Origin: Deroplatys truncata | Taxonomy: Eukaryota > Arthropoda > Insecta > Mantodea > Mantidae | Direction of reading: 5' to 3' | NCBI GenBank assembly: GCA_030765065.1 | Contig: CM060985.1 | Span: 175,213,596-175,277,595 of the forward strand | Length of the DNA: 64,000 nt | Shown: positions 24,861 to 62,475 of the stretch, one piece after another | Layout of the letters: each line of letters begins with the position of its first letter | Position numbering within the stretch: the first letter of the stretch is position 1 | Program-made: the position numbers and the translations under genes | The notes under the pieces: generated by a model | Databases searched by the model: none | What the model saw: only the letters and a program-made list of their open reading frames with translations | Told to the model about the DNA's origin: nothing

Positions 24861-25657
24861 GATTGAAAGACCCCAAGGTACACAACTCTATTTAAACATG
24901 GCGACAACTCAGATGGTAAGACAGAAGCAACTGTATATGCAGTAATGTGCTCAAATGGGTACGCAACTCGTGGAACAGAGCGTCAAAGGACATGGGTTAA
25001 TGCTCAATCATGTGGCTTCTTAACGTATCAGCCAATATCGGTTGTTAGACAAAATATAATTCTGTTTGTGGGATTTATCACTTCACAGAGTTTGTTGCAG
25101 AGGTCTTGAATCATTCTGTAGTATTATTTTGAAGAAATAAGTTTACTGTTATTTTATTTTGTAGTATATAAATGTAATTACAATTGGTCATATTTTAAGT
25201 ACCATATCACAGAAGATGAAGTAAAGCTAAACACTGCAATTAATGGAATGCACAAAATTCTGGTAGCTGTTTCACATCTCCTTAACCTGGTACAGTGAGA
25301 TATCATGAGTTAGTACAGGCCTCTGGTAATGTGCCATTTATTTTACGGCAAACCACTTGCATCAGATTCCTGAGCGCATCATCCTGGTCTTGCTGATCAA
25401 ATTTCTGTAACAGATAATTGATTTTACAGTTACTGCTTGCATTTATAACTGTAGAAACATCAGAGAGTTATATAACATGAATGAACTACACACAATTATA
25501 AAGAAAGAAAGTTTGTGTTTGTTTCTTTGTGTATGCATGGTAATCTCAAAATCCACTCAACCATTTTGATAATTCTTTCACCATTGAAAATCCAATTGTT
25601 GCAATAAAACACTTTCTCATTCTTTTCATAAATTACTAAAATATTAAAAAGGATTTA
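24861..25657. other. Gap: no gene seen
   Basis: AT-rich non-coding sequence up to the TTAA-flanked element; no supported feature. Confidence 0.4.
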
Positions 25658-26693
25658 TTAAGGGGACAAGGTACTCTGAAATGGTCAAAACTCACATGTT
25701 TGGTTTTAGGCACTAATAAAATCCCTATTATTTCCAGTTTCAGAAAAAATATACCTTTTGGGGGTTAAGAGATTTTTAAAACATTTAAATACTATTTAAA
25801 TGTTAGTCTATATTCCTTTAAAGCTGTCATGCAATGCTCCTTTTTAGAACATTTTTGTATCCTTCAACAACGAACGACTATATCATGCCCAGCGAGTAGT
25901 TCAGAAATTAACAAAAGAGGCCAGGACCAAGAGAAGGCGATCAGAAAAGCTGGAGCAATCCAGGAATAAAGGTGCAGATGATTATGACCCTGGAATGTAG
26001 TGAAGTTGACAGAACTTTGATGTACAAACTTTAAATTCAGTTTTCTCAAACCTACATTTTTGGATACTTATGTACCTTTTTATCAGAAAGTATGAGAGGT
26101 AGAGAGCTAAAATTTTCAGTACATGTATACAACACATAGTTAAACTTTCTGAACCACAATCATAATTTTATAATGTATATTAGTGATATTAAGAAAGCAA
26201 CAAAATTACAATTTTTCCACAGTTTCACTTTTCTGAGTATGCAAATAACTTTTTTCAATTTCTAGTGAACAGATATGCATAACTAGATAGATATGTATTT
26301 GCTTTAAATACATAATAAGTGCATATTTCAATTTACAAACTTCACAGAGTTGCTGGTTTCCTAGGGCCCATATCCTCCAACACTGTGGTTACCGAGTCAA
26401 TGTGCCCTATTGACTGAAAACTGAATATTTATTAACATTTGTCATTTATATAAATTAGTTACAATTCAGTACTTACTTAAATATGTAAACCTACATACTA
26501 CTCTTAACATAAGCTTTTCTGTCTTTCCTTGAGTTGCTGTGCTTCAAAGGGCTCCTAGCTCAAACACCGTGGTTATCGAGCTATTGAGACTTTTTTTACA
26601 AATTTTCTTTTCGGTATTCTATATTTCTTCTTATTCCTTATTCCTATATTTCCTCAGCCATCTCTTTCTGACTAAACCTAAATATTTTCCTAC

Positions 26694-26705
26694 TTCTAAT
26701 ATTTT
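26694..26705 (+). repeat. Candidate target duplication, left
   Basis: TTCTAATATTTT occurs here and at 29907-29918, bracketing both Penelope-like arms. Five bases (TTCTA) could also belong to the right arm itself. Confidence 0.5.
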
Positions 26706-26784
26706 TTTTATAATAAACCAGAAGTATTGTTTATTGTGATGTTGTGTAGAATTTAAAGTTTGAGTTGGAAAATGTTGATTCACA

Positions 26785-27579
26785 TCACATACATGCGCTA
26801 GTTGTTATCGTAGGAGCGCTTTCAAGAGATTTGTTTCTTCCATCTTCAGCTGAGACCCAACTAACTGGATCTCCCTCACCCCTCATCCCAAGAAATGTTA
26901 CATTGGACGTTATTTCTGCTCTCTGTTGAGAAAAATTGGAACCTGGTGATATTGCTGCCCTCTGTGTTGTCGGTTGGTCATTCATCATACTTCTTTCTTC
27001 TATCTTGTGATCTAATTGGTCTGCATTCTGTTGAGGAGACTTGGAAACAATTAATCTTGAATTTGTTGCCATCTGTGGAGAACATTGGGAACTTCTATTT
27101 TCTCTCTTGTTACTTGAATGGATCAACTGCATTAAGTGGTCTGTCGGTGGTATTTCAAAATTCAAAGCATTCTTAATGTTGAAATGGATGAAGATCTTTT
27201 CCCATATTTCCAAATGTGAAGGTATCTGAATGAATTTAAGTAGTTTTATCTCTTGTCCAATTTCATGATTACTATTCCAAAAGTGATTAGCTACTGCTGA
27301 TCTGTCTGTTTGTTTCAGTTTTATATTTCTTTGATGTTCACTTAATCTTATTTTTAAATTTCTTTTAGTTCTTCCTATATATAAGCCTTGACAGTCCTGA
27401 CATGGAATCTGGTAAATTCCTGATTTTTTTAAATTGTCAGTTGTATTACTCAAAGGTGTGTTCAACATGTTTTTTAAACTGAAAGCATTCTGAGGTGCTA
27501 ATTGAATCTGGTATTTTCTAAACAATTTTTCAAAAGTTTTAAACATTACTGGATGATATGTGAACCTCTTATATATCAC
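26785..27579 (-). CDS. Penelope-like GIY-YIG endonuclease frame
   Basis: In Penelope-like elements a GIY-YIG nuclease at the C-terminus of the single protein cuts target DNA for priming. The motif SGIYQIPCQDC..GLYIGRTK gives both halves (GIY, YIG), followed by NLKIRLSEHQRN with the Arg and the CxxC-like pair typical of the group. The upstream part (RFTYHPVMFKTFEKLFRKYQ) is the linker from the polymerase. The tail after about residue 150 is Ser/Gln/Asn-rich and low in structure. The frame lies 11 bp beyond the stop of the polymerase frame and in another phase, so it was once one protein. The plus-strand arm carries the same arrangement. Confidence 0.9.
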   Translation of the reverse strand: MIYKRFTYHPVMFKTFEKLFRKYQIQLAPQNAFSLKNMLNTPLSNTTDNLKKSGIYQIPCQDCQGLYIGRTKRNLKIRLSEHQRNIKLKQTDRSAVANHFWNSNHEIGQEIKLLKFIQIPSHLEIWEKIFIHFNIKNALNFEIPPTDHLMQLIHSSNKRENRSSQCSPQMATNSRLIVSKSPQQNADQLDHKIEERSMMNDQPTTQRAAISPGSNFSQQRAEITSNVTFLGMRGEGDPVSWVSAEDGRNKSLESAPTITTSACM

Positions 27580-27590
27580 ATCCTTTTTAT

Positions 27591-28607
27591 TTAGGTTTTG
27601 TAAAGTGCTAATACTATGTAAGTTTTGTTTCTTTTGTATTTAGTAAGTAGGTTATTAATAAGTTGAGGTTTAAAACCATTTTCCATGGCTACATTCTTTA
27701 TGTAATTTAATTCCATGATATACTCTTCTTTTTCCAAAGGTACTCTAATCAATCTATGAATGAGACTTCTGAAAAGAGCATGTTGATGTGATACAGGGTT
27801 GTAGAAATTATTTTTAATATAATTATCCACATGCGTTGGTTTCCTATAAATGCCAAATTTAAGATAGTTTTCTTTTCTTTTTACAGGTATATCCAGGAAT
27901 GGTAGTGAATTATTAGTTTCAATTTCCATGGTAAATTTAATATGTATATCTTGTTCATTCAAAATATCCAGTGATGAATTCAAACAATCTTGAGGTACCA
28001 CTGTGAAAATGTCATCTACATATCTATGCCATATCTTAAAAATATGTGGATGTGAAGAGGTGACAGTTTTTTCCAAAGAGCTCATATAGAGGTCAGCCAG
28101 TAAAGGAGATAAAGGATTACCCATTGCTAAGCCATGTGTCTGCTTGTAAAAGTTCTTATTGAAAGAAAAATAATTTTGATTGATACAACTGATTGTAAGT
28201 GTAATCATCTCTTGGATGTAATTGTCATATAAATTAAGTGATTCCAACCAATTTCTTAACAATTCTGGTATATTATCTGTAGGTACATTTGTAAAAAGGG
28301 ATGTAACATCAAAGGATACCAACATATCCTCTTTATTAATTGTATAATTCTGAATATGATTAATTAATTCTGTTGAATGTTTAATAGTTAATGACGGGAA
28401 CTTTTCCAAAGATGTGTATTCCTTTGTTAGCCATTTAGCCAAATTATAGCTGGGTGAGCCTATGTTATTAATTATAGGTCTCATACTATTATCTGTTTTG
28501 TGAGTTTTTGGCAAGCAATATATTTTTGACAAGGTTGGATTGTTAGTTTTGAGCTGTCGTTTCTGCTCAGTTGAAAATATAGTTGCATTGGATATCACTT
28601 GGTTCAC
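27591..28607 (-). CDS. Penelope-like reverse transcriptase, 5'-truncated
   Basis: The polymerase copies element RNA. The 338-residue frame shows SKIYCLPKTHKTDNSMRPI, then SFDVTSLFTNVPTD (first catalytic Asp), QTHGLAMGNPLSPLLADLYM (motif B) and RYVDDIFTVV (catalytic Asp pair), then LPFLDIPVKR and IYRKPTHVDNYI. These are the standard Penelope-like blocks in order. The first codon is GTG in an open frame that reaches an upstream stop, so the N-terminus is lost. A frameshift just before YKT-stop separates it from the endonuclease. It looks young, with otherwise open coding text. Confidence 0.9.
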   Translation of the reverse strand: MNQVISNATIFSTEQKRQLKTNNPTLSKIYCLPKTHKTDNSMRPIINNIGSPSYNLAKWLTKEYTSLEKFPSLTIKHSTELINHIQNYTINKEDMLVSFDVTSLFTNVPTDNIPELLRNWLESLNLYDNYIQEMITLTISCINQNYFSFNKNFYKQTHGLAMGNPLSPLLADLYMSSLEKTVTSSHPHIFKIWHRYVDDIFTVVPQDCLNSSLDILNEQDIHIKFTMEIETNNSLPFLDIPVKRKENYLKFGIYRKPTHVDNYIKNNFYNPVSHQHALFRSLIHRLIRVPLEKEEYIMELNYIKNVAMENGFKPQLINNLLTKYKRNKTYIVLALYKT

Positions 28608-28639
28608 CTGTTTTATGCAAGATGTAGATTATGATTATG

Positions 28640-29067
28640 TAAATGACATTTTCACAGTGGTACCTCAAGATTGTTTGAATTCATCACTGGATATTTTGAA
28701 TGAACAAGATATACATATTAAATTTACCATGGAAATTGAAACTAATAATTCACTACCATTCCTGGATATACCTGTAAAAAGAAAAGAAAACTATCTTAAA
28801 TTTGGCACTTATAGGAAACCAACACATGTGGATAATTATATTAAAAATAATTTCTACAACCCTGTATCACATCAACATGCTCTTTTCAGAAGTCTCATTC
28901 ATAGATTGATTAGAGTACCTTTGGAAAAAGAAGAGTATATCATGGAATTAAATTACATAAAGAATGTAGCCATGGAAAATGGTTTTAAACCTCAACTTAT
29001 TAATAACCTACTTACTAAATACAAAAGAAACAAAACTTACATAGTATTAGCACTTTACAAAACCTAA
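28640..29067 (+). pseudogene. Reverse transcriptase C-terminal piece (plus arm)
   Basis: It begins at VNDIFTVVPQDCLNSS, so the polymerase fingers and palm motifs A and B are absent and the catalytic pair reads ND. It continues through IYRKP-equivalent text (GTYRKPTHVDNY) to the same LALYKT-stop as the minus arm. It cannot encode a working polymerase. Confidence 0.88.
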
Positions 29068-29078
29068 ATAAAAAGGAT

Positions 29079-29873
29079 GTGATATATAAGAGGTTCACAT
29101 ATCATCCAGTAATGTTTAAAACTTTTGAAAAATTGTTTAGAAAATACCAGATTCAATTAGCACCTCAGAATGCTTTCAGTTTAAAAAACATGTTGAACAC
29201 ACCTTTGAGTAATACAACTGACAATTTAAAAAAATCAGGAATTTACCAGATTCCATGTCAGGACTGTCAAGGCTTATATATAGGAAGAACTAAAAGAAAT
29301 TTAAAAATAAGATTAAGTGAACATCAAAGAAATATAAAACTGAAACAAACAGACAGATCAGCAGTAGCTAATCACTTTTGGAATAGTAATCATGAAATTG
29401 GACAAGAGATAAAACTACTTAAATTCATTCAGATACCTTCACATTTGGAAATATGGGAAAAGATCTTCATCCATTTCAACATTAAGAATGCTTTGAATTT
29501 TGAAATACCACCGACAGACCACTTAATGCAGTTGATCCATTCAAGTAACAAGAGAGAAAATAGAAGTTCCCAATGTTCTCCACAGATGGCAACAAATTCA
29601 AGATTAATTGTTTCCAAGTCTCCTCAACAGAATGCAGACCAATTAGATCACAAGATAGAAGAAAGAAGTATGATGAATGACCAACCGACAACACAGAGGG
29701 CAGCAATATCACCAGGTTCCAATTTTTCTCAACAGAGAGCAGAAATAACGTCCAATGAAACATTTCTTGGGATGAGGGGTGAGGGAGATCCAGTTAGTTG
29801 GGTCTCAGCTGAAGATGGGAGAAACAAATCTCTCGAAAGCGCTCCTACGATAACAACTAGCGCATGTATGTGA
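29079..29873 (+). CDS. GIY-YIG endonuclease frame (plus arm)
   Basis: 264 residues, matching 26785-27579 except for a Val to Glu change in SNxTFLGMRG. SGIYQIPCQDC and GLYIGRTKR are intact. It has no polymerase in front, so it is likely silent unless read from a nearby promoter. Confidence 0.85.
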   Translation: MIYKRFTYHPVMFKTFEKLFRKYQIQLAPQNAFSLKNMLNTPLSNTTDNLKKSGIYQIPCQDCQGLYIGRTKRNLKIRLSEHQRNIKLKQTDRSAVANHFWNSNHEIGQEIKLLKFIQIPSHLEIWEKIFIHFNIKNALNFEIPPTDHLMQLIHSSNKRENRSSQCSPQMATNSRLIVSKSPQQNADQLDHKIEERSMMNDQPTTQRAAISPGSNFSQQRAEITSNETFLGMRGEGDPVSWVSAEDGRNKSLESAPTITTSACM

Positions 29874-29906
29874 TGTGAATCAACATTTTCCAACTCAAAC
29901 TTTAAA

Positions 29907-29918
29907 TTCTAATATTTT
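29907..29918 (+). repeat. Candidate target duplication, right
   Basis: TTCTAATATTTT, identical to 26694-26705. Confidence 0.5.
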
Positions 29919-30511
29919 ACCCTTACATTTGACACCCAGCATCTTTCTACATATAATTTCAATAGGTAAATTGGACCATTTCTTCTTTTGTCATTTTTCC
30001 CTCGAATCCTTAGTTCCTTCACATTCTAAAATTAAATGCCAATAATTATTATACTTTTTATTACATAAAAGACACTTTCCTTGGATCTCTCTTTTTCCTA
30101 AGCCTTTTAGCATCACCACTCTTGTCCTCGCCCATGCAAGGCCTTCTCGTGCTGATCTGTCACATATATCGACATATTATACATAACTAAATAATTGAGG
30201 TTCAGAAGATAGCTGATTATATTGAGAATAAGTATGCAAAAGTGTGATTCTGTATTGCAAGTAGTATCAGCGAAAAAGGTACATGAATTCACATGTTTTA
30301 AAAGCAAATTTTATTATTTTTCTGCAGAAAGAAATCACCTTTACGGACTGAACTATATAAGGTACCAACACAACCACTTAAAATAATTTTCATGGCTTAT
30401 AGAATAATTAACACAAATTTCAGAAAAAACTATTGAGAACTTTAAGAGCAATTGTAATTTAACACACTTAAGGTGTAATTTCAATCTGTTCAGATTACCT
30501 TGTCCCCTTAA

Positions 30512-31926
30512 GCCCTTATACTTGAAGACTATCACATTGCAGTTATAAAATAACATGCTTACGAAGAGCGCCTTGACTTTTAGTTGAGGATGCCATGGAG
30601 CAGAAAAATTGTTGTGTTGCTCAATAGAATATAAATAGTTAGCTGCCTTCCGCAGAGTATAAAAACAAAAGCGGTCACATTTTATTTCAAGGGTAGATAG
30701 CCATGATGCAACACTTCAACAAACAAAAGACAGAGTTCAAAAAGCAACAATCGATCCTGTGTTATATTTGTTTCTTTAACTGCCATTTATCAAATGCTGC
30801 CGATGTGTGTGTGTGTGTGTAATGAAACATGTCAAAACCTCTGAGTAACTTCTAAAGTGGTGTGCACTGAAGCTTCTGGATGACAAAATCTTCTAATAAC
30901 CTCATGTATGAGAGTTTTATTTCCTTTGTATTTATATTGTAATCACAATCGTTAGCAGGGGATCAAAATAATTGAATCAACAGTGAAAACTGCTAACATT
31001 AAAAGTCAGTGAACCACATTTTATGATTAATAACTGAGAATAGTATTTTTCTCGATGGTCACAGACTATGTATTTTCCAAAACTTGTGGCTTGGGAGTGC
31101 GGACGTTTATTTGTTGTATATGTTAAGGGTTTCTGCATTGTGTGAAAATGATGTAGCTTTTGTTAGTAAATAACTATGGGACTAAAAAGAAGGGGTAATC
31201 TTGCTATCAGCATCTCGCTAGCCTACGTCACCGTACGCTGCCACCTTTACGAATGGAAAGTTGCTGAAATTACGCGAGAAGTTATAGGTATTACGGAATA
31301 CGAGTGTTGTCGTCGATACATAGGCCATGCCGCCGAGAGGAAGAAGGCGGGAAAAGCCATGTTCATGTCCACATAACCTCGCGCAATTCCGCGATCGGTA
31401 AATAACCTTAAAATGTGAATACATTTCGTAAGGGGGGTTGCGTTACTACTGATGAAATAAACTTAAGGTTATCCATGTAGCACTATTATTAAATCATAAC
31501 CTCACGCTGGATCCCGCGGTCGCGGTTTCTGCATTTCTGCATTACTTTGGCCTTCATTGGAAACGTTAATAAAAGCTAAAGTAAAGTGAATAAATTGCCT
31601 TAGGAGTGGTTGTTGTCTGCTCTATGGCTGGTGCCCACCTGCCCCCCGTTTTAGGTGTTTTACTTTCATAGTAAAATTATGGTGTGAAGACAAGAAACGT
31701 GGGCATCTTGTCGCTGTCGCACATGCGCAATGGAAACGGCCAACCTAAATCAGGAGTGAAATCCGCGAAATAATCTTACTTTCCGTGTTCTTTTGCCGCT
31801 GATATAAACACAATGCATTATTATTAGCAATGCATTAAAGGAAACAAAATGGCTTGGGGAGGATGTGAAAATACAATATACACGGTAGTGAGAGGGAAAT
31901 TAGGTGTGGAGAACATACAGCTATAT
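30512..31926. other. Gap: mostly unassigned, with one dispersed repeat
   Basis: Non-coding sequence after the TTAA element. A block at about 30985-31185 (cacattttatgattaataac to taaataactatgggactaaa) recurs at 43378-43585. A short (TG)n lies near 30805. The small open frame after 31176 is unrecognised. Confidence 0.4.
30985..31185 (+). repeat. Dispersed repeat, copy 1 of 2
   Basis: Shares with 43378-43585 the blocks gtggcttgggagtgcgga, gttctgcatt-like and aaataactatgggactaaa in the same order and strand. Class unknown. Confidence 0.6.
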
Positions 31927-33704
31927 TAAAAAATCTGATGTGTTACACTCACATGACTTTCTCTACTCTTGTACAATCTATTTTTACAAACGCCTATTCT
32001 CCATATGCTTTATGTTAATCGAGATATCGAGATGTCAATCTTATTGCTAATTTTCTTGTAGATGCAAGGGGAATATGGTAGCTTTTAAGCGATAGTCAAA
32101 TATTTTAACGCTGGTTGCTATGCGGCGCATTCCATTCTCTTTGCAAGTCCAGGACATAAAAAAATCTGATGTGTTACACTCACATGACTTTCTCTACTCT
32201 TGTACAATCTATTTTTACAAACGCCTATTCTCCATATGCTTTATGTTAATCGAGATATCGAGATGTCAATCTTATTGCTAATTTTCTTGTAGATGCAAGG
32301 GGAATATGGTAGCTTTTAAGCGATGGTCAAATATTTTAACGCTGGTTGCTATGTGTCGAATTCCATTCTCTTTGCAAGTCCAGGACATAAAAAAATGAAT
32401 AACGAATTTGAGAAAAAGTATAAGTATTGGAAAATTTAAGGGAATAACAAGCAATATCTCGAAAACGGTTCACTCAACAAAAGAAATGTATATAACATAA
32501 GTTGTGTATTTTAACGAGATCAACATTTTTTGTGTAGTAAAATTTTGTCTATCTCTTATGGTTTACCAGTTATGCAAAAGTCGTTCACAATGAAGAATAC
32601 TTTTGGAGACATTCCCAGAAAATTCGAGATATACATTTCATTTCTCATGGCATTATCTTAAACATATGATATTTTAAACAAAATCGTTAGAGCCATTTTT
32701 GAGAAAATTAAAATTTTCGAAAAATGTTCCATGTAAAGGGTAGTCTGGGGTGGGGGGATTTTCTTGAAAACCTTCGTGTCGCATCTCTGGAAGATACTGA
32801 ACCTAAATACCAAGTTTGGTGTTTATCCGACTGTTCGTTTTTGAGTTATGCTGTTCACACACACACAGACACACACACACAGACACACACACACACAGAC
32901 ACACACACACACAGACACACACACGGACATGTTTCCAAAAATGCTTTTTTTGGATTCAGGAGGTCTCAAAACATGTATTTCCGGTGAAATCTCGGTATCG
33001 AATTTTTGGGTGGAATGCAATACTTCCCCTACTTACTATACGTAGTAGAGAAAGTAAAAAAATGAATAACGAATTTGAGAAAAAGTATAAGTATTGGAAA
33101 ATTTAAGGGAATAACAAGCAATATCTCGAAAACGGTTCACTCAACAAAAGAAATGTATATGACATAAGTTGTGTATTTTAACGAGATCTACATTTTTTGT
33201 GTAGTAACATTTTGTCTATCTCTTATGGTTTACCAGTTATGCAAAAGTCGTTCACAATGAAGAATACTTTTGGAGACATTCCCAGAAAATTCGAGATATA
33301 CATTTCATTTCTTATGACATTATCTTAAACATATGATATTTTAATCAAAATCGTTAGAGCCATTTTTGAGAAAATTAAAATTTTCGAAAAATGTTCCATG
33401 TAAAGGGTAGTCTGGGGTGGGGGGATTTTCTTGAAAACCTTCGTGTCGCATCTCTGGAAGATACTGAAGCTAAATACCAAGTTTGGTGTTTATCCGACTG
33501 TTCGTTTTTGAGTTATGCTGTTCACAGACACACACACACACAGACACACACACACAGACACACACACGGACATGTTTCCAAAAATGCTTTTTTTGGATTC
33601 AGGAGGTCTCAAAACATGTATTTCCGGTGAAATCTCGGTATTGAATTTTTGGGTGGAATGCAATACTTCCCCTACTTACTATACGTAGTAGAGAAAGTAA
33701 AAAC
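31927..33704 (+). repeat. Dominant repeat, outer copy split by an identical family member
   Basis: The outer copy occupies 31927-32165 and 33064-33704 and reads through gacataaaaaaatgaataac once the inner copy is removed. Confidence 0.88.
32166..33054 (+). repeat. Dominant repeat, full-length inner copy (reference copy)
   Basis: 889 bp from CTGATGTGTTACACTCACAT to CGTAGTAGAGAAAG. TAAAAAAAT lies on both sides (32157-32165, 33055-33063). A near-terminal inverted repeat CTTTCTCTACT/AGTAGAGAAAG sits at the right end and about 22 bp inside the left end. A (CACACAGA)n-type microsatellite lies at about 32858-32930. No conserved protein is encoded. Confidence 0.88.
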
Positions 33705-33860
33705 CTAAATCTAACCTAACATCCTGTGAATCAGAAGTCTAAGTTTAAATAAAACAAACTAAACTTAACCTAACCTCCCGTGAATCAGGAATCTAAGCTT
33801 AAAAAACCTAAATCTAACCTAACACCTGTGAATCAGAAGCCTAAGTTTAAATTAAATTAT
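33704..33860 (+). repeat. Tandem array, three units of about 50 bp
   Basis: Each unit has an aaacctaaatctaacctaac-like block, then gtgaatcaggaatc/gaagtc, then taagtttaaat. A fourth unit lies apart at 35190-35240, beyond SINE and LINE sequences. Confidence 0.65.
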
Positions 33861-49055: not shown

Positions 49056-50049
49056 TACTACGTGATCAAAAGTATCCGGACACCTGGCTGAAAATGACGT
49101 ACTGGTTCGTGGCGCCCTCCATCGGTAATGCTAGAAGTAAATATGGTGTTGGCCCAACCTTAGCCTTGATGACAGCGTTCACTCTCGCAGGAATACCTTC
49201 ATTCAGGTGCTGGAAGGTTTCTTGGGGAATGACAGCCAATTCTTCACGGAGTGCGGAACTGAGGAGAGGTGTCGATGTAGGTCGGTGAGGCCTGGCACGA
49301 AGTCGGCGTTCCAAAACATCCCAAAGGTGTTCTATAGGATTCAAGTCAGGACCCTGTGCAGGCCAGTCCATTACAGGGATGTTATGGTCGTGTAAATACT
49401 CCGCCACAGCCCGTGCAGTATGAACAGGTGCTCGATCGTGTTGAAAGATGCAATCGTCATCCCCGAATTGCACTTCAACAGTGGGAAGCAAGAAGGTGCT
49501 TAAAATATAATGTAGGTCTGCGCTGTGACCGTGCCACGCAAAACAACAAGGGGTGCAAGCCCCCTCCAGGAAAAACATGACCACACCATAACACCACCAC
49601 CTCCGAATTTCACTGTTGGCACTACACACGCTGGCAAATGGCGTGCACCGGGCATTCGTCATACCCACACCCTGTCATCGGATCGCCACATTATGTACCG
49701 TGATTCGTCACTCCACACAACGTTTTGCCACTGTTAAGTCGTCTAATGTTGACGCTCCTTACACCAAGCGAGGCGTCGTTTGGCATTTTACTGCGAGATG
49801 TGTGCTTATGAGCAGCCGCTCGACCATGGAATCCAAGGTTTCTCACCTCACGCCTAAGTGTCATAGTACTTGGAGTAGATCCTGATGCAGTTTGGAATTC
49901 CTGCGTCCCATTCTGCTGTTTCACGGTGTCTAATGACGACTGAGGTCGCGGATAATGAGTACCAGGCAGTAGGTGGCAGCACAATGCAGCTAAGATAAAA
50001 AAAACGTATGTTTGTGGGGGTGTCCGGATACTTTTAATCACATAATGTA
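49056..50049 (-). mobile_element. Tc1-like element, internally deleted
   Basis: Inverted ends: TACTACGTGATCAAAAGTAT at the left and, reversed, TACATTATGTGATTAAAAGT at the right, each with a CCGGACAC tail and TA borders. It inserted in a dominant-repeat copy. Confidence 0.92.
49090..49911 (-). pseudogene. Tc1 transposase pseudogene with N-terminal deletion
   Basis: The ATG at 49911 keeps only the first codons of the family start (atgggacgc) and then jumps to text that lies about 90 codons further on in the sister copy at 8092. Most of the DNA-binding domain is therefore missing. TLRREVRNLGFHGRAAAHK follows, then breaks. The frame at 49066-49668 carries [34 protein letters not shown] (second Asp), PAQGPDLNPIEHLWDVLERR (Glu) and the complete C-terminus with AVIPQETFQHLNEGI. 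The first catalytic Asp region is in another frame. Confidence 0.92.
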
Positions 50050-51282: not shown

Positions 51283-51957
51283 GGGAACATGGACAACTAG
51301 CTTGTAATGTTACACTTCGGTCATTTTTGGGGAGGTAAAGTACCTTGCCAATCCAGTGGCCGGAAGTATGCTGGAGAAATAGACGAGGTCACGCTGACAG
51401 AGGGTGGGGGTAGTCAGAACATGGACAACTAGATTGTAATGTTACACTTCGGTCATTTTTGGGGAGTTAAAGTACCTTGCCAATCCAGTGGCCGGAAGTA
51501 TGCTGGAGAAATAGGCGAGGTCACGCTTACAGAGGGTGGGGCTAGTCAGAACATGGACAACTACATTGTAATGTTACACTTCGGTCATTTTTTGGGGAGG
51601 TAAAGTACCTTGCCAATCCAGTGGCTAGAACTATGCTGGAGAAACAGACGAGGTCACGCTGACAGAGGCTGGGGTTAGTGAGAACATGGACAACTACATT
51701 GTAATGTTACACTTCGGTCATTTTTTGGGGAGGTAAAGTACCTTGCCAATCCAGTGGCTGGAAGTATGCTGGAGAAACAGACGAGGTCACGCTGACAGAG
51801 GTTGGGGCTAGTGAGAACATGACAAGTAGCTTGTAATGTTACACTCCGGTCATATTTTGGGGAGGTAAATTACCTTGCCAGTCCAGTGACTCGAATTATG
51901 CTCATGGAATGGAGGTCACGCTAACAGAGGGTAGGGCTATTCCTTTAGTGAGAACAT
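51283..51957 (+). repeat. Tandem satellite, five units of about 132 bp
   Basis: Unit starts (gaacatggacaact) lie near 51285, 51417, 51549, 51682 and 51814, with a final partial at 51951. Each unit contains gtaatgttacacttcggtca, gaggtaaagtaccttgccaa and gaggtcacgctgacagagg. Units 1-4 are close to identical; unit 5 has drifted and is a few bases longer. Confidence 0.92.
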
Positions 51958-55266: not shown

Positions 55267-56596
55267 TACGAGGGCAGTCCATAAAGTCCGAGACGTTTTG
55301 GCCTATCGTGGCGACGAGTAGAGCTAGAGCCATTAGCTCGGTGTCAGAACGTTCCTACATTCAGTACGCATCCAGATGTGGTAGCGTGAGGACTGTGCCT
55401 TCCTTACTGTACTCTTTGTGAGTTGTTAAAATGTGCGCTGCAATAGAAAATCCCGCCACTTGTGAAGTGCGGTCTGTGATTAGGTTTTTGCTGGCTAAAA
55501 AGAACAAACCAATTGAAATTTATCGTCAACTTTGTGGTGTTTACGGGCAGGGAATAATGAGTGAAAGCCGAGTCAGGCAATGGTGCATTGATTTTAAAAA
55601 TGGCCGTACCAATGTTCACGACAAGGATCGCAGTGGTAGGCCTAGCCTTATGACTGATGAACTGTCAATGCAAATCAATGACAAAATTCGTGAAAATCGT
55701 CATTTCATGATTATCGAACTTTCGGAACATTTTCCCAAAATTTCACAGAGTTTGGTGCATGAAATTATGGTGGAGAAGCTTGGTTACCACAAATTTTGTG
55801 CTAGGTGGGTTCCGAAAATCCTAACGGAAGACCATAAAAAGCAGAGACTGGCTGCAGCACTGACCTTCCTCCAAGATTTCAACAATATGGTAACGCTTTA
55901 CTCGATCGTATCGTAACCGGGGACGAGACTTGGGTGAAGCATGTCAATTGTGAAACAAAACAGCAATCGATGGAATGGGGACACACACATTCTCCCAATA
56001 AACCAAGAAAATGTTTGCAAACGCAGTCACCAAGAAAGGTCATGGCTGCTGTGTTTTGGGACTCTAAGAGAGTGCTTCTCGTTGAGTTTCTGGAACGTGG
56101 AACAACAATAACCTCAGAGAGGTATTGTGAAACACTAAGAAAGTTAAGGCGTGCCATACAAAATAAGCGTCGGGGAAAACTTAGCACAAAGGTGTTGTTT
56201 CTTCACGACAATGCACGCCCACACACGGCCAATTGTACCCGAACACTCTTGGATGGTTTTGGATGGGAGGTGTTTGACCATCCACCATACAGCCCGAATT
56301 TGGCGCCGAGTGACTACCACCTCTTCCCAGCGATGAAGAAATGGCTCGGTACACAACGCTTTGATACTGACGCTGAACTGCAAGCAGTGTAAACCAGTGG
56401 TTGAAGTCGCAGGCGGCAGAGTTCTACACAGAGTGTATTGAATAACTTGTACCACGGTATGCCTCAATTTGAATGACGATTATGTAGAAAAATAGCTTAA
56501 GAGTGCACCTTTCAAATGTACATAATAAACTTTGATATTTGCATTTTGTTAATTGTTTATTTCAAAACGTCTGGGACTTTCTGGAATACCCTCGTA
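55267..56596 (+). mobile_element. Mariner element, best preserved in the window
   Basis: Inverted ends of about 34 bp: TACGAGGGCAGTCCATAAAG and, reversed, TACGAGGGTATTCCAGAAAG, both continuing TCCxAGACGTTTTG. TA borders (55267-55268, 56595-56596) rejoin the host repeat. Confidence 0.93.
55431..56495 (+). pseudogene. Mariner transposase, two-frame pseudogene
   Basis: The ATG at 55431 opens MCAAIENPATCEVRSVIRFL. Then come the helix-turn-helix (RVRQWCIDFKNGRTNVHDKD), SGRPSLMTDELSMQIND, the second HTH (IELSEHFPKISQSLVHEIMV) and FCARWVPKILTEDHKK. A one-base frameshift near 55887 moves the frame. It continues ALLDRIVTGDETWVKHVN (first Asp), KVLFLHDNARPHTANCTRTL (second Asp) and YSPNLAPSDYHLFPAMKKWL (third Asp, DD34D). 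A second frameshift at ELQAV and a late stop damage the C-terminus, which still ends NDDYVEK at 56495. All catalytic residues are intact, with few lesions for its length. Confidence 0.93.
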
Positions 56597-61182: not shown

Positions 61183-62475
61183 TACGAGGGGCACTATTTA
61201 TATTTTGAGCCTTGGCAACCCTGACTGTTGTAGGTGCTATCTGACGTTTCCAATGGAAAGTTCACATTTTTGACCATAATCTACCTCAAACATTTTGTCA
61301 ATAGAGCGTCATTTGTTTTGTTTACACTAACTTGAAAATTGTGTGTCAACAAAAACATGGAATTAACTCGTGAACATGTTCGTGCAATGATTTATTACGA
61401 CTTTCAACGTGGATTATCAAGACAAGAGTGCATCGTTCAACTAACTTCCACATTTGGCGACGAAGCTCCATCGTTTGCCACTGTGAAACGCTGGTATAAC
61501 GAATTTATTCGTGGCCGCCGTTCGCTCAATGATGAAGTTCGTAAACGTCGTCCAAAATCAGTTGCTGTGCCAGAAAACATTGATGCTGTGCAAAATCTAA
61601 CAATGAAAGATCGTCATGCGACATATTGTGAGATTGAGGCAACCCTAGGCATTAGTTCCATCAGTATATATAAAATATTGCATGATTATTTAGCCGTGAA
61701 AACGGTTGGCTCTCGTTGGATCCCACATAATTTGACGCAAGCTCAAAAACATGCTCGTGTCGATTGGTGTACAAAAATGCTCAAGAAATACAATGGCGGT
61801 GCCTCAAAAGACGTATATAAGATTGTAACAGGTGAGGAATCATGTATCAATGCGTATGAGCCGGAACGTAAACAGCAGTCGACTGTATTGGTGTTTCAAG
61901 ATGAAGCAAATCCAACAAAAGTTGTTCGCACTCGAAGCACTTCGAAGCAAATGGTCGCCTGCTTTTTCAACAAAACTAACCATGTGGCAACAGTGTCTTT
62001 AGAGGAACGTAAACGGTCAATGCCGAATGGTACACAACCATTTGTTTGCCGGAAGTCTTCGGTGAAGTAAGGAAAACCAACAAGAACCGCAGGATCGTTC
62101 CTCATCAAGAGAATGCGAGCGCACACACATCTCGTCTAACAACAGAGTATTTGAAGGCTCAAAAATCGAATTGATGGGTCATCCACCATACAGTCCTGAT
62201 TTGGCACCCAATGACTTCTTTTTGTTCCCGAACATCAAGAATAAATTGCGTGAACAACGATTTTCGTTGGCAGAAGAAGCCGTTGATGCCTTCAAAAACC
62301 ATGCTTTGGAGGTGTCTCAAGAAGACTGGAATAAATGCTTTGACAAATGGTTCAAACGGATGCAAAAGTGTATTGATCATAAAGGAGAATATTTTGAAAA
62401 ACAATAAAGCAGTTTTCAATCAGAAATTACTTTGTTTTAATTATTAGGCTCAAAATATAAATAGTGCCCCTCGTA
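61183..62475 (+). mobile_element. Mariner element with both terminal repeats
   Basis: The ends CGAGGGGCACTATTTATATT match in inverse, with TA borders at 61183-61184 and 62474-62475. Sister of 4476-5727; the two copies share terminal and coding sequence. Confidence 0.93.
61357..62407 (+). pseudogene. Mariner transposase pseudogene with Asp-to-Glu changes
   Basis: The start is the ATG of MELTREHVRAMIYYDFQRGL at 61357; the open frame reaches further upstream without another ATG. About 238 codons are uninterrupted and include TFGDEAPSFATVKRWYNEFI, RPKSVAVPENIDAVQNL, LGISSISIYKILHDYLAVKT and SRWIPHNLTQAQKHARVDW. The first catalytic block reads TGEESCINAY where GDES is expected. A frameshift near 62015 follows. 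The second catalytic block, in the new frame, reads HQENASAHTS where HxDN is expected. Another break at AQKSN precedes PPYSPDLAPNDFFLFPNI (third Asp intact). The C-terminus ends DHKGEYFEKQ. Two catalytic Asp are Glu, besides the frame breaks. Confidence 0.93.

Follow-up and report, generated by a model that had tools for sequence, protein, structure and literature searches.

L1 retrotransposons offer a familiar case of priming from two strands, known as twin priming, in which both target strands prime cDNA at one insertion, and L1 inversions consist of non-overlapping pieces of one RNA. In some Penelope-like elements (PLEs), a hammerhead ribozyme has been reported in the pseudo-LTR (pLTR). In PMC3846280, inverted pLTRs are described in the Penelope elements of Adineta vaga and are called typical of flies and fish as well, and self-priming is favored as their origin. 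A tail on one of two inverted pLTRs is also in print (PMC3846280), and PMC8969392 mentions inverted pLTRs and 3' extensions. In vitro, the Poseidon element of Anolis carolinensis cuts both target strands and extends each of them; it has an AT-rich target preference and begins reverse transcription at two neighboring internal sites of the RNA, the sequence between them being the tail (PMC11167929). No difference in start site was reported there between the top and the bottom strand in vitro (PMC11167929); therefore, the Poseidon assay does not predict a strict pairing of one tailed and one tail-less end.

Here, we analyzed a 64,000-nt stretch of the Deroplatys truncata genome (the window; C11:175213596-175277595 of a 4.29-Gb assembly) that contains a PLE with reverse transcriptase (RT) and GIY-YIG endonuclease and with an inverted partial copy. 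The sequence-only reading of this DNA had described two GIY-YIG Penelope-like copies placed head-to-head, which was confirmed, with Pfam GIY-YIG matches in both, and had likened them to inverted partial Penelope-like copies, rightly, as the same arrangement appears in PMC3846280. Like the A. vaga elements described there, the family studied here combines RT and GIY-YIG, truncated copies, tandem units, a head-to-head inverted partial copy, a short target duplication and a short tail at one end (PMC3846280); unlike them, the inverted arm here is long (1.27 kb), and the tail rule is strict across 34 pairs. With Poseidon (PMC11167929), it shares adjacent internal RT starts spaced by the tail length and, if the mechanism proposed below holds, extension on both strands. 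In contrast with Poseidon in vitro, the pairs in this genome have the two start sites divided between their arms. Poseidon also has a hammerhead ribozyme (PMC11167929), whereas no Rfam ribozyme matched the element here at E up to 1, either in window positions 26000-30500 or in the tandem units of a relative (L034).

Structure of the insertion and template of its arms

Positions along the element are given on a ruler, U, a 2829-nt tandem unit that occurs naturally in this genome (minus strand of L011, 1501-4329). The features of the locus, in window coordinates, are as follows.

26694-26705, no strand: left target-site duplication, TTCTAATATTTT, present once in empty sites
26706-28622, minus: left copy, the longer one, U915-2829, 5' truncated, its 3' end at tail site T
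26706-26751, minus: the 46-nt tail, which separates 3' end site T (26706) from 3' end site N (26752)
26785-27579, minus: GIY-YIG endonuclease part of the left copy (Pfam PF01541, E 5.3e-6)
27591-28607, minus: reverse transcriptase part of the left copy (Pfam RVT_1, E 2.7e-11; YVDD)
28623-28635, no strand: junction of the two 5' ends, 13 nt, no alignment to unit U
28636-29906, plus: right copy, the shorter one, U1515 to about U2783, ending at no-tail site N, 5' truncated
29079-29873, plus: GIY-YIG endonuclease part of the right copy (Pfam PF01541, E 5.3e-6)
29907-29918, no strand: right target-site duplication, TTCTAATATTTT, present once in empty sites

The insertion is 26706-29906, which the 12-mer borders exactly on both sides, and the single occurrence of the 12-mer in empty sites bears out the candidate target duplication that had been noted outside both copies. 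When aligned, the arms (26747-28022 and 28636-29911) proved to be as equal in length and as nearly identical as they had been judged by eye, with 1276 nt each, six mismatches, no indels and a spacing of 613 nt. The 0.6-kb center of the earlier reading is no separate part: it consists of the rest of the longer left copy on its 5' side (to 28622) and the 13-nt junction, and no stretch of host DNA is found at the join. The outer ends are not mirror images: the left copy carries the 46-nt 3' tail and ends at T (...TTATAAAA), whereas the right copy lacks it and ends at N (...TTTAAA), 46 nt earlier. The right copy stops at 29906 (...CTTTAAA), and the TTCTA that follows is the first 5 nt of the 12-mer; this agreement between the right target duplication and the element is probably due to chance. 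Microhomology priming at TTCTA was considered and dropped, since other N ends stop at or near TTTAAA, mostly without such homology.

In the left copy, the GIY-YIG domain lies downstream of RVT_1, in the C-terminal position, and a one-base deletion near 27635, common to both arms, is followed by an early end of the RT frame. The right copy begins within the RT domain, at the YVDD codons. An unbroken reading frame exists elsewhere in this family; the protein of a relative matched telomerase RT chains (E 2.3e-4) and, equally well, group II intron-like RTs (2.1e-4). Tandem units could be identified in relatives (the 2829-nt unit; 15 direct neighbors), whereas the 5'-truncated window copy has none.

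The history of the site was examined with an empty-site query in which the window flanks were joined, the insert was removed and one TTCTAATATTTT was kept. It spanned the junction in all 40 scored host-repeat copies at 94-98% (417 first-look candidates), covering query positions 1-133 in 38 rows, 3-133 in one and 1-132 in one; in the one copy read letter by letter (L088), the 12-mer was present once. Thus, the whole structure is one insertion, as the earlier reading had supposed, and arm changes absent from the other sampled copies agree with this. Two independent insertions, or a single insertion that was later duplicated in inverted form or rearranged by recombination within the genome, might be entertained because tandem and clustered copies are common here, the 15 direct neighbors among them. 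For the window, this explanation is refuted by the empty sites, whose single TTCTAATATTTT places one target duplication about the entire structure; the clean join, the arm changes found nowhere else in the sample and the orientation bias among sampled copies described below (28 to 0) also oppose it, and we regard it as extremely improbable. On the minus strand of the host repeat itself (25601-26705 and 29919-32000), a short frame shows the pattern C..C..H..C and may be the end of a LINE.

The arms differ from each other by 0.47% (6/1271), whereas the nearest other sampled copy differs from them by 1.7% over 975 nt. At each of the six differences, one arm has the base found in most other sampled copies. 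The left arm carries the unusual base at 26824, 26839 and 26900, the right arm at 27834, 27850 and 28016 (left-arm numbering); among other copies it was seen in none at 26824, 27850 and 28016, in one each at 26900 and 27834, and in 3/43 at 26839. A distance of 6 nt separates the inner edge from 28016/28642, a site that may be part of the junction. Six further substitutions are common to both arms and absent from all other covering segments, in a scan of 1270 positions with at least 20 other segments (64 segments, some loci repeated). The deletion near 27635 is likewise in both arms, whereas the position is occupied in 39 of 40 comparison rows (by another letter in two of the 39, and with a gap close by in one; the fortieth row stops short, and two of the 40 repeat a locus). 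Such joint private changes, together with the low divergence, show that the RNA from which the two arms were copied came from one source. The source copy probably already had the broken RT frame, in which case the enzyme would have been supplied by another copy. Transcripts of the two arms might, as the earlier reading suggested, form a hairpin that gives rise to small RNAs.

Head-to-head pairs across the genome

Four probe searches, each with at most 40 candidates scored out of hundreds to thousands, yielded 111 distinct copies; candidate copies in this genome number in the thousands (4696 places at first look in one of the searches, with 40 scored). Among neighbors within 6 kb in this sample, 28 were head-to-head, 15 were direct and none was tail-to-tail. 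Ends were read for 37 head-to-head pairs, and both outer ends could be scored in 34. Four pairs (C16:609.0M, C12:17.79M, C13:124.4M and C2:135.5M) were recognized by a short inverted arm beside a seemingly single copy.

All 34 scorable pairs had one T and one N outer end, that is, the optional 3' tail was on one inverted end in the window and in each of the 33 others. If ends were independent at 50:50, the chance of 34 discordant pairs would be about 6e-11, a figure to be read with the fact that pairs within one family are not fully independent, while their target flanks differ, as do all joins compared. Three pairs were set aside: C3:1.31M, one end of which continues to U186 and for which no target duplication was found; C14:172.38M, in which a 19-nt N-like inverted piece lies opposite an N end and no target duplication was seen, possibly an N/N pair; and C16:193.0M, in which the N end alone was read, within a duplicated region. 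C5:70.77M (N/T from the search table alone) and C16:361.2M (one end shown, T) were also left uncounted.

Target duplications accompanied nearly all pairs. A score of at least 8 was reached by 33/34 pairs vs 31/1326 mismatched controls, and a score of at least 10 by 28/34 vs 0/1326; the only pair below 8 was C15:20.86M (score 7). The commonest length was 12 bp. N ends were inexact in C10:262.28M and C13:124.4M, with about 4 and about 15 extra nt, respectively, before the duplication. One-armed copies (9 T and 5 N) scored at least 8 in 3/14 cases vs 3/182 controls, and reached 9 in 2/14 vs 1/182. They mostly lack a clean duplication, for which later deletions could also account.

We also compared 29 inner joins (28 of the 34 scorable pairs plus the dropped C3:1.31M). 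All lay at distinct positions, with the arms abutting within 22 nt, and none contained a longer stretch of foreign DNA; gaps ranged from -5 to +22 under strict matching to diverged references. In the remaining six pairs the arms abut within 10 nt by BLAST. Microhomology at the inner joins was considered as well, with BLAST overlaps of up to 12 nt, and no excess is claimed.

These data bear on two other readings of the window. A pre-existing inverted dimer copied as a unit from elsewhere would explain why the arms share private changes, as if copied together. However, all 29 compared joins are at different positions, and none of the 40 candidates scored, apart from the window, has a match extending to the 13 junction bases with which the query began, which makes such an origin very unlikely. 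A false palindrome created by assembly has to be weighed because inverted repeats are a known source of misassembly and the structure was seen in assembly sequence rather than in reads. Against it, both arms have differences of their own, they are of unequal extent and one is tailed, the duplication at the outer ends is single in empty sites, and 33 other loci, each with target flanks of its own, repeat this outer architecture, with different joins where these were compared. An assembly artefact is therefore unlikely, and we assign it a minimal probability.

The N arm was longer than the T arm in 20/34 pairs (tally from coordinates). The arms overlap by 100 nt or more in 13 pairs (the dropped C3:1.31M included); of these, the partner arm was the nearest sampled relative in six, tied in one and was less close than another copy in six. 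In three of the latter (C10:262.28M, C3:1.31M and C8:44.34M) most arm differences occur in one arm alone, which is what age would produce. In the other three this was not so (C15:20.86M, 6/11; C4:3.04M, 2/4; C6:96.88M, 0/2), and a common template may therefore not extend to every pair. Two or more tandem units on one side of a pair also occur, as expected from a tandem RNA.

Two-sided priming as a candidate mechanism

On the basis of these observations, the window insertion very probably arose by two-sided target-primed reverse transcription from a staggered cut, with both 5'-truncated cDNAs joined. The enzyme of the element would make a staggered cut of about 12 bp in the interspersed repeat, and the free 3' ends of both strands would prime cDNA on the element RNA, the left strand starting at T and the right strand at N, which lies 46 nt farther upstream in the RNA. 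Neither cDNA would reach the unit's 5' end: they would stop after about 1.9 and 1.3 kb, respectively, and be joined there with 13 nt in between; filling in of the stagger would yield the TTCTAATATTTT duplication. Priming from two strands is suggested because T and N ends stand at the borders of one duplication, in divergent orientation and with arms of unequal length. It is also in line with the in vitro behavior of the Anolis element, which extends both strands from adjacent start sites spaced by the tail (PMC11167929). The protein may act as a dimer, on one RNA or on sister RNAs, and host end joining could connect the cDNAs. As in L1 twin priming, two target strands would prime at one insertion. 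Unlike the non-overlapping pieces of L1 inversions, the arms here overlap by about 1270 nt, both beginning near the 3' end.

Snapback or self-priming, in which one cDNA (or an antisense RNA, as PMC3846280 proposes) folds back and is copied into an inverted arm, could produce the head-to-head orientation and near-identical arms, and since the T arm is the longer one in the window, length alone does not exclude it there. However, a copied arm would be expected to run out to the template's end, with nothing to make it stop at N, and a T arm could not be copied from a tail-less N arm. This route predicts one arm contained in the other and ending with it, whereas the outer ends, T and N, are unequal; in the window the end sites alone oppose it. 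As a general route it is further opposed by the 20/34 pairs whose N arm is longer, and hence no copy of the T arm, and by target duplications at both outer ends in 33/34. Self-priming does not fit because of the N stops, the tail-less N templates and these longer N arms, and we consider it improbable.

Returning to two-sided priming, a bolder proposal is that the T and N start sites form an obligate pair, such that one strand primes at each per double-strand cut. We advance this tentatively, as a proposal that could well fail; two RT subunits on adjacent sites of one RNA, or on paired RNAs, would probably be behind it. If it is true, the inverted dimer would be a normal direct product of transposition and not an accident, and a clean target duplication would depend on the pairing. 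A related idea, that a trailing RT follows on one RNA and leaves the N arm ahead and longer, was unsupported (N longer in 20/34, p = 0.39), and the T and N sites showed weak folds only when examined for stem-loops (z -1.4, -1.5 and 0.0).

In the literature searched, which lay outside subscription papers and preprints, neither a strict rule of one T and one N end nor its use as an argument for two-sided priming was found, and this rule appears to be the part worth following. Insertions that keep both cDNAs, with a tail end, a no-tail end and one duplication, would record both priming events, and the thousands of candidate copies make the two-strand model testable by counts of T/T, N/N and T/N pairs.

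Neighboring repeats and interrupted copies

Two PLE copies 1.64 Mb apart, L115 (C16:193025600-193028600) and L116 (C16:194665200-194668200), carry an insert at the same place, with ends CCCTCCGTCA...TGACGGAGGG at TTAA and 99.1% alike over 2344 nt, which we take to resemble piggyBac. Judged by eye, the flank at the N end of one locus and that at the T end of the other agree in the manner of a target duplication, and a segmental duplication is therefore likely behind these loci. Their reading as one C16 pair split by 1.64 Mb was rejected, as both loci carry the same piggyBac-like insert, and they were not counted. In L117 (C16:75.08M), a PLE copy is interrupted by an insert of about 1.8 kb (170-1961) with a GC-rich start and about 10 bp duplicated around it.

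Elsewhere in the window, remnants of transposases of the mariner/DDE kind were found at 55431-56392 (HTH_48 and Transposase_1), 61339-62070 (HTH_48) and 49066-49668 (DDE_3). A direct tandem duplication of 231 bp (98% identical) occupies 31925-32386, and a 132-bp tandem repeat with five copies (91% matches) lies at 51285-51939. The repeat at 33700-33856 has a 54-bp unit that includes CTAACCTAACC, which presumably resembles the insect telomere repeat.
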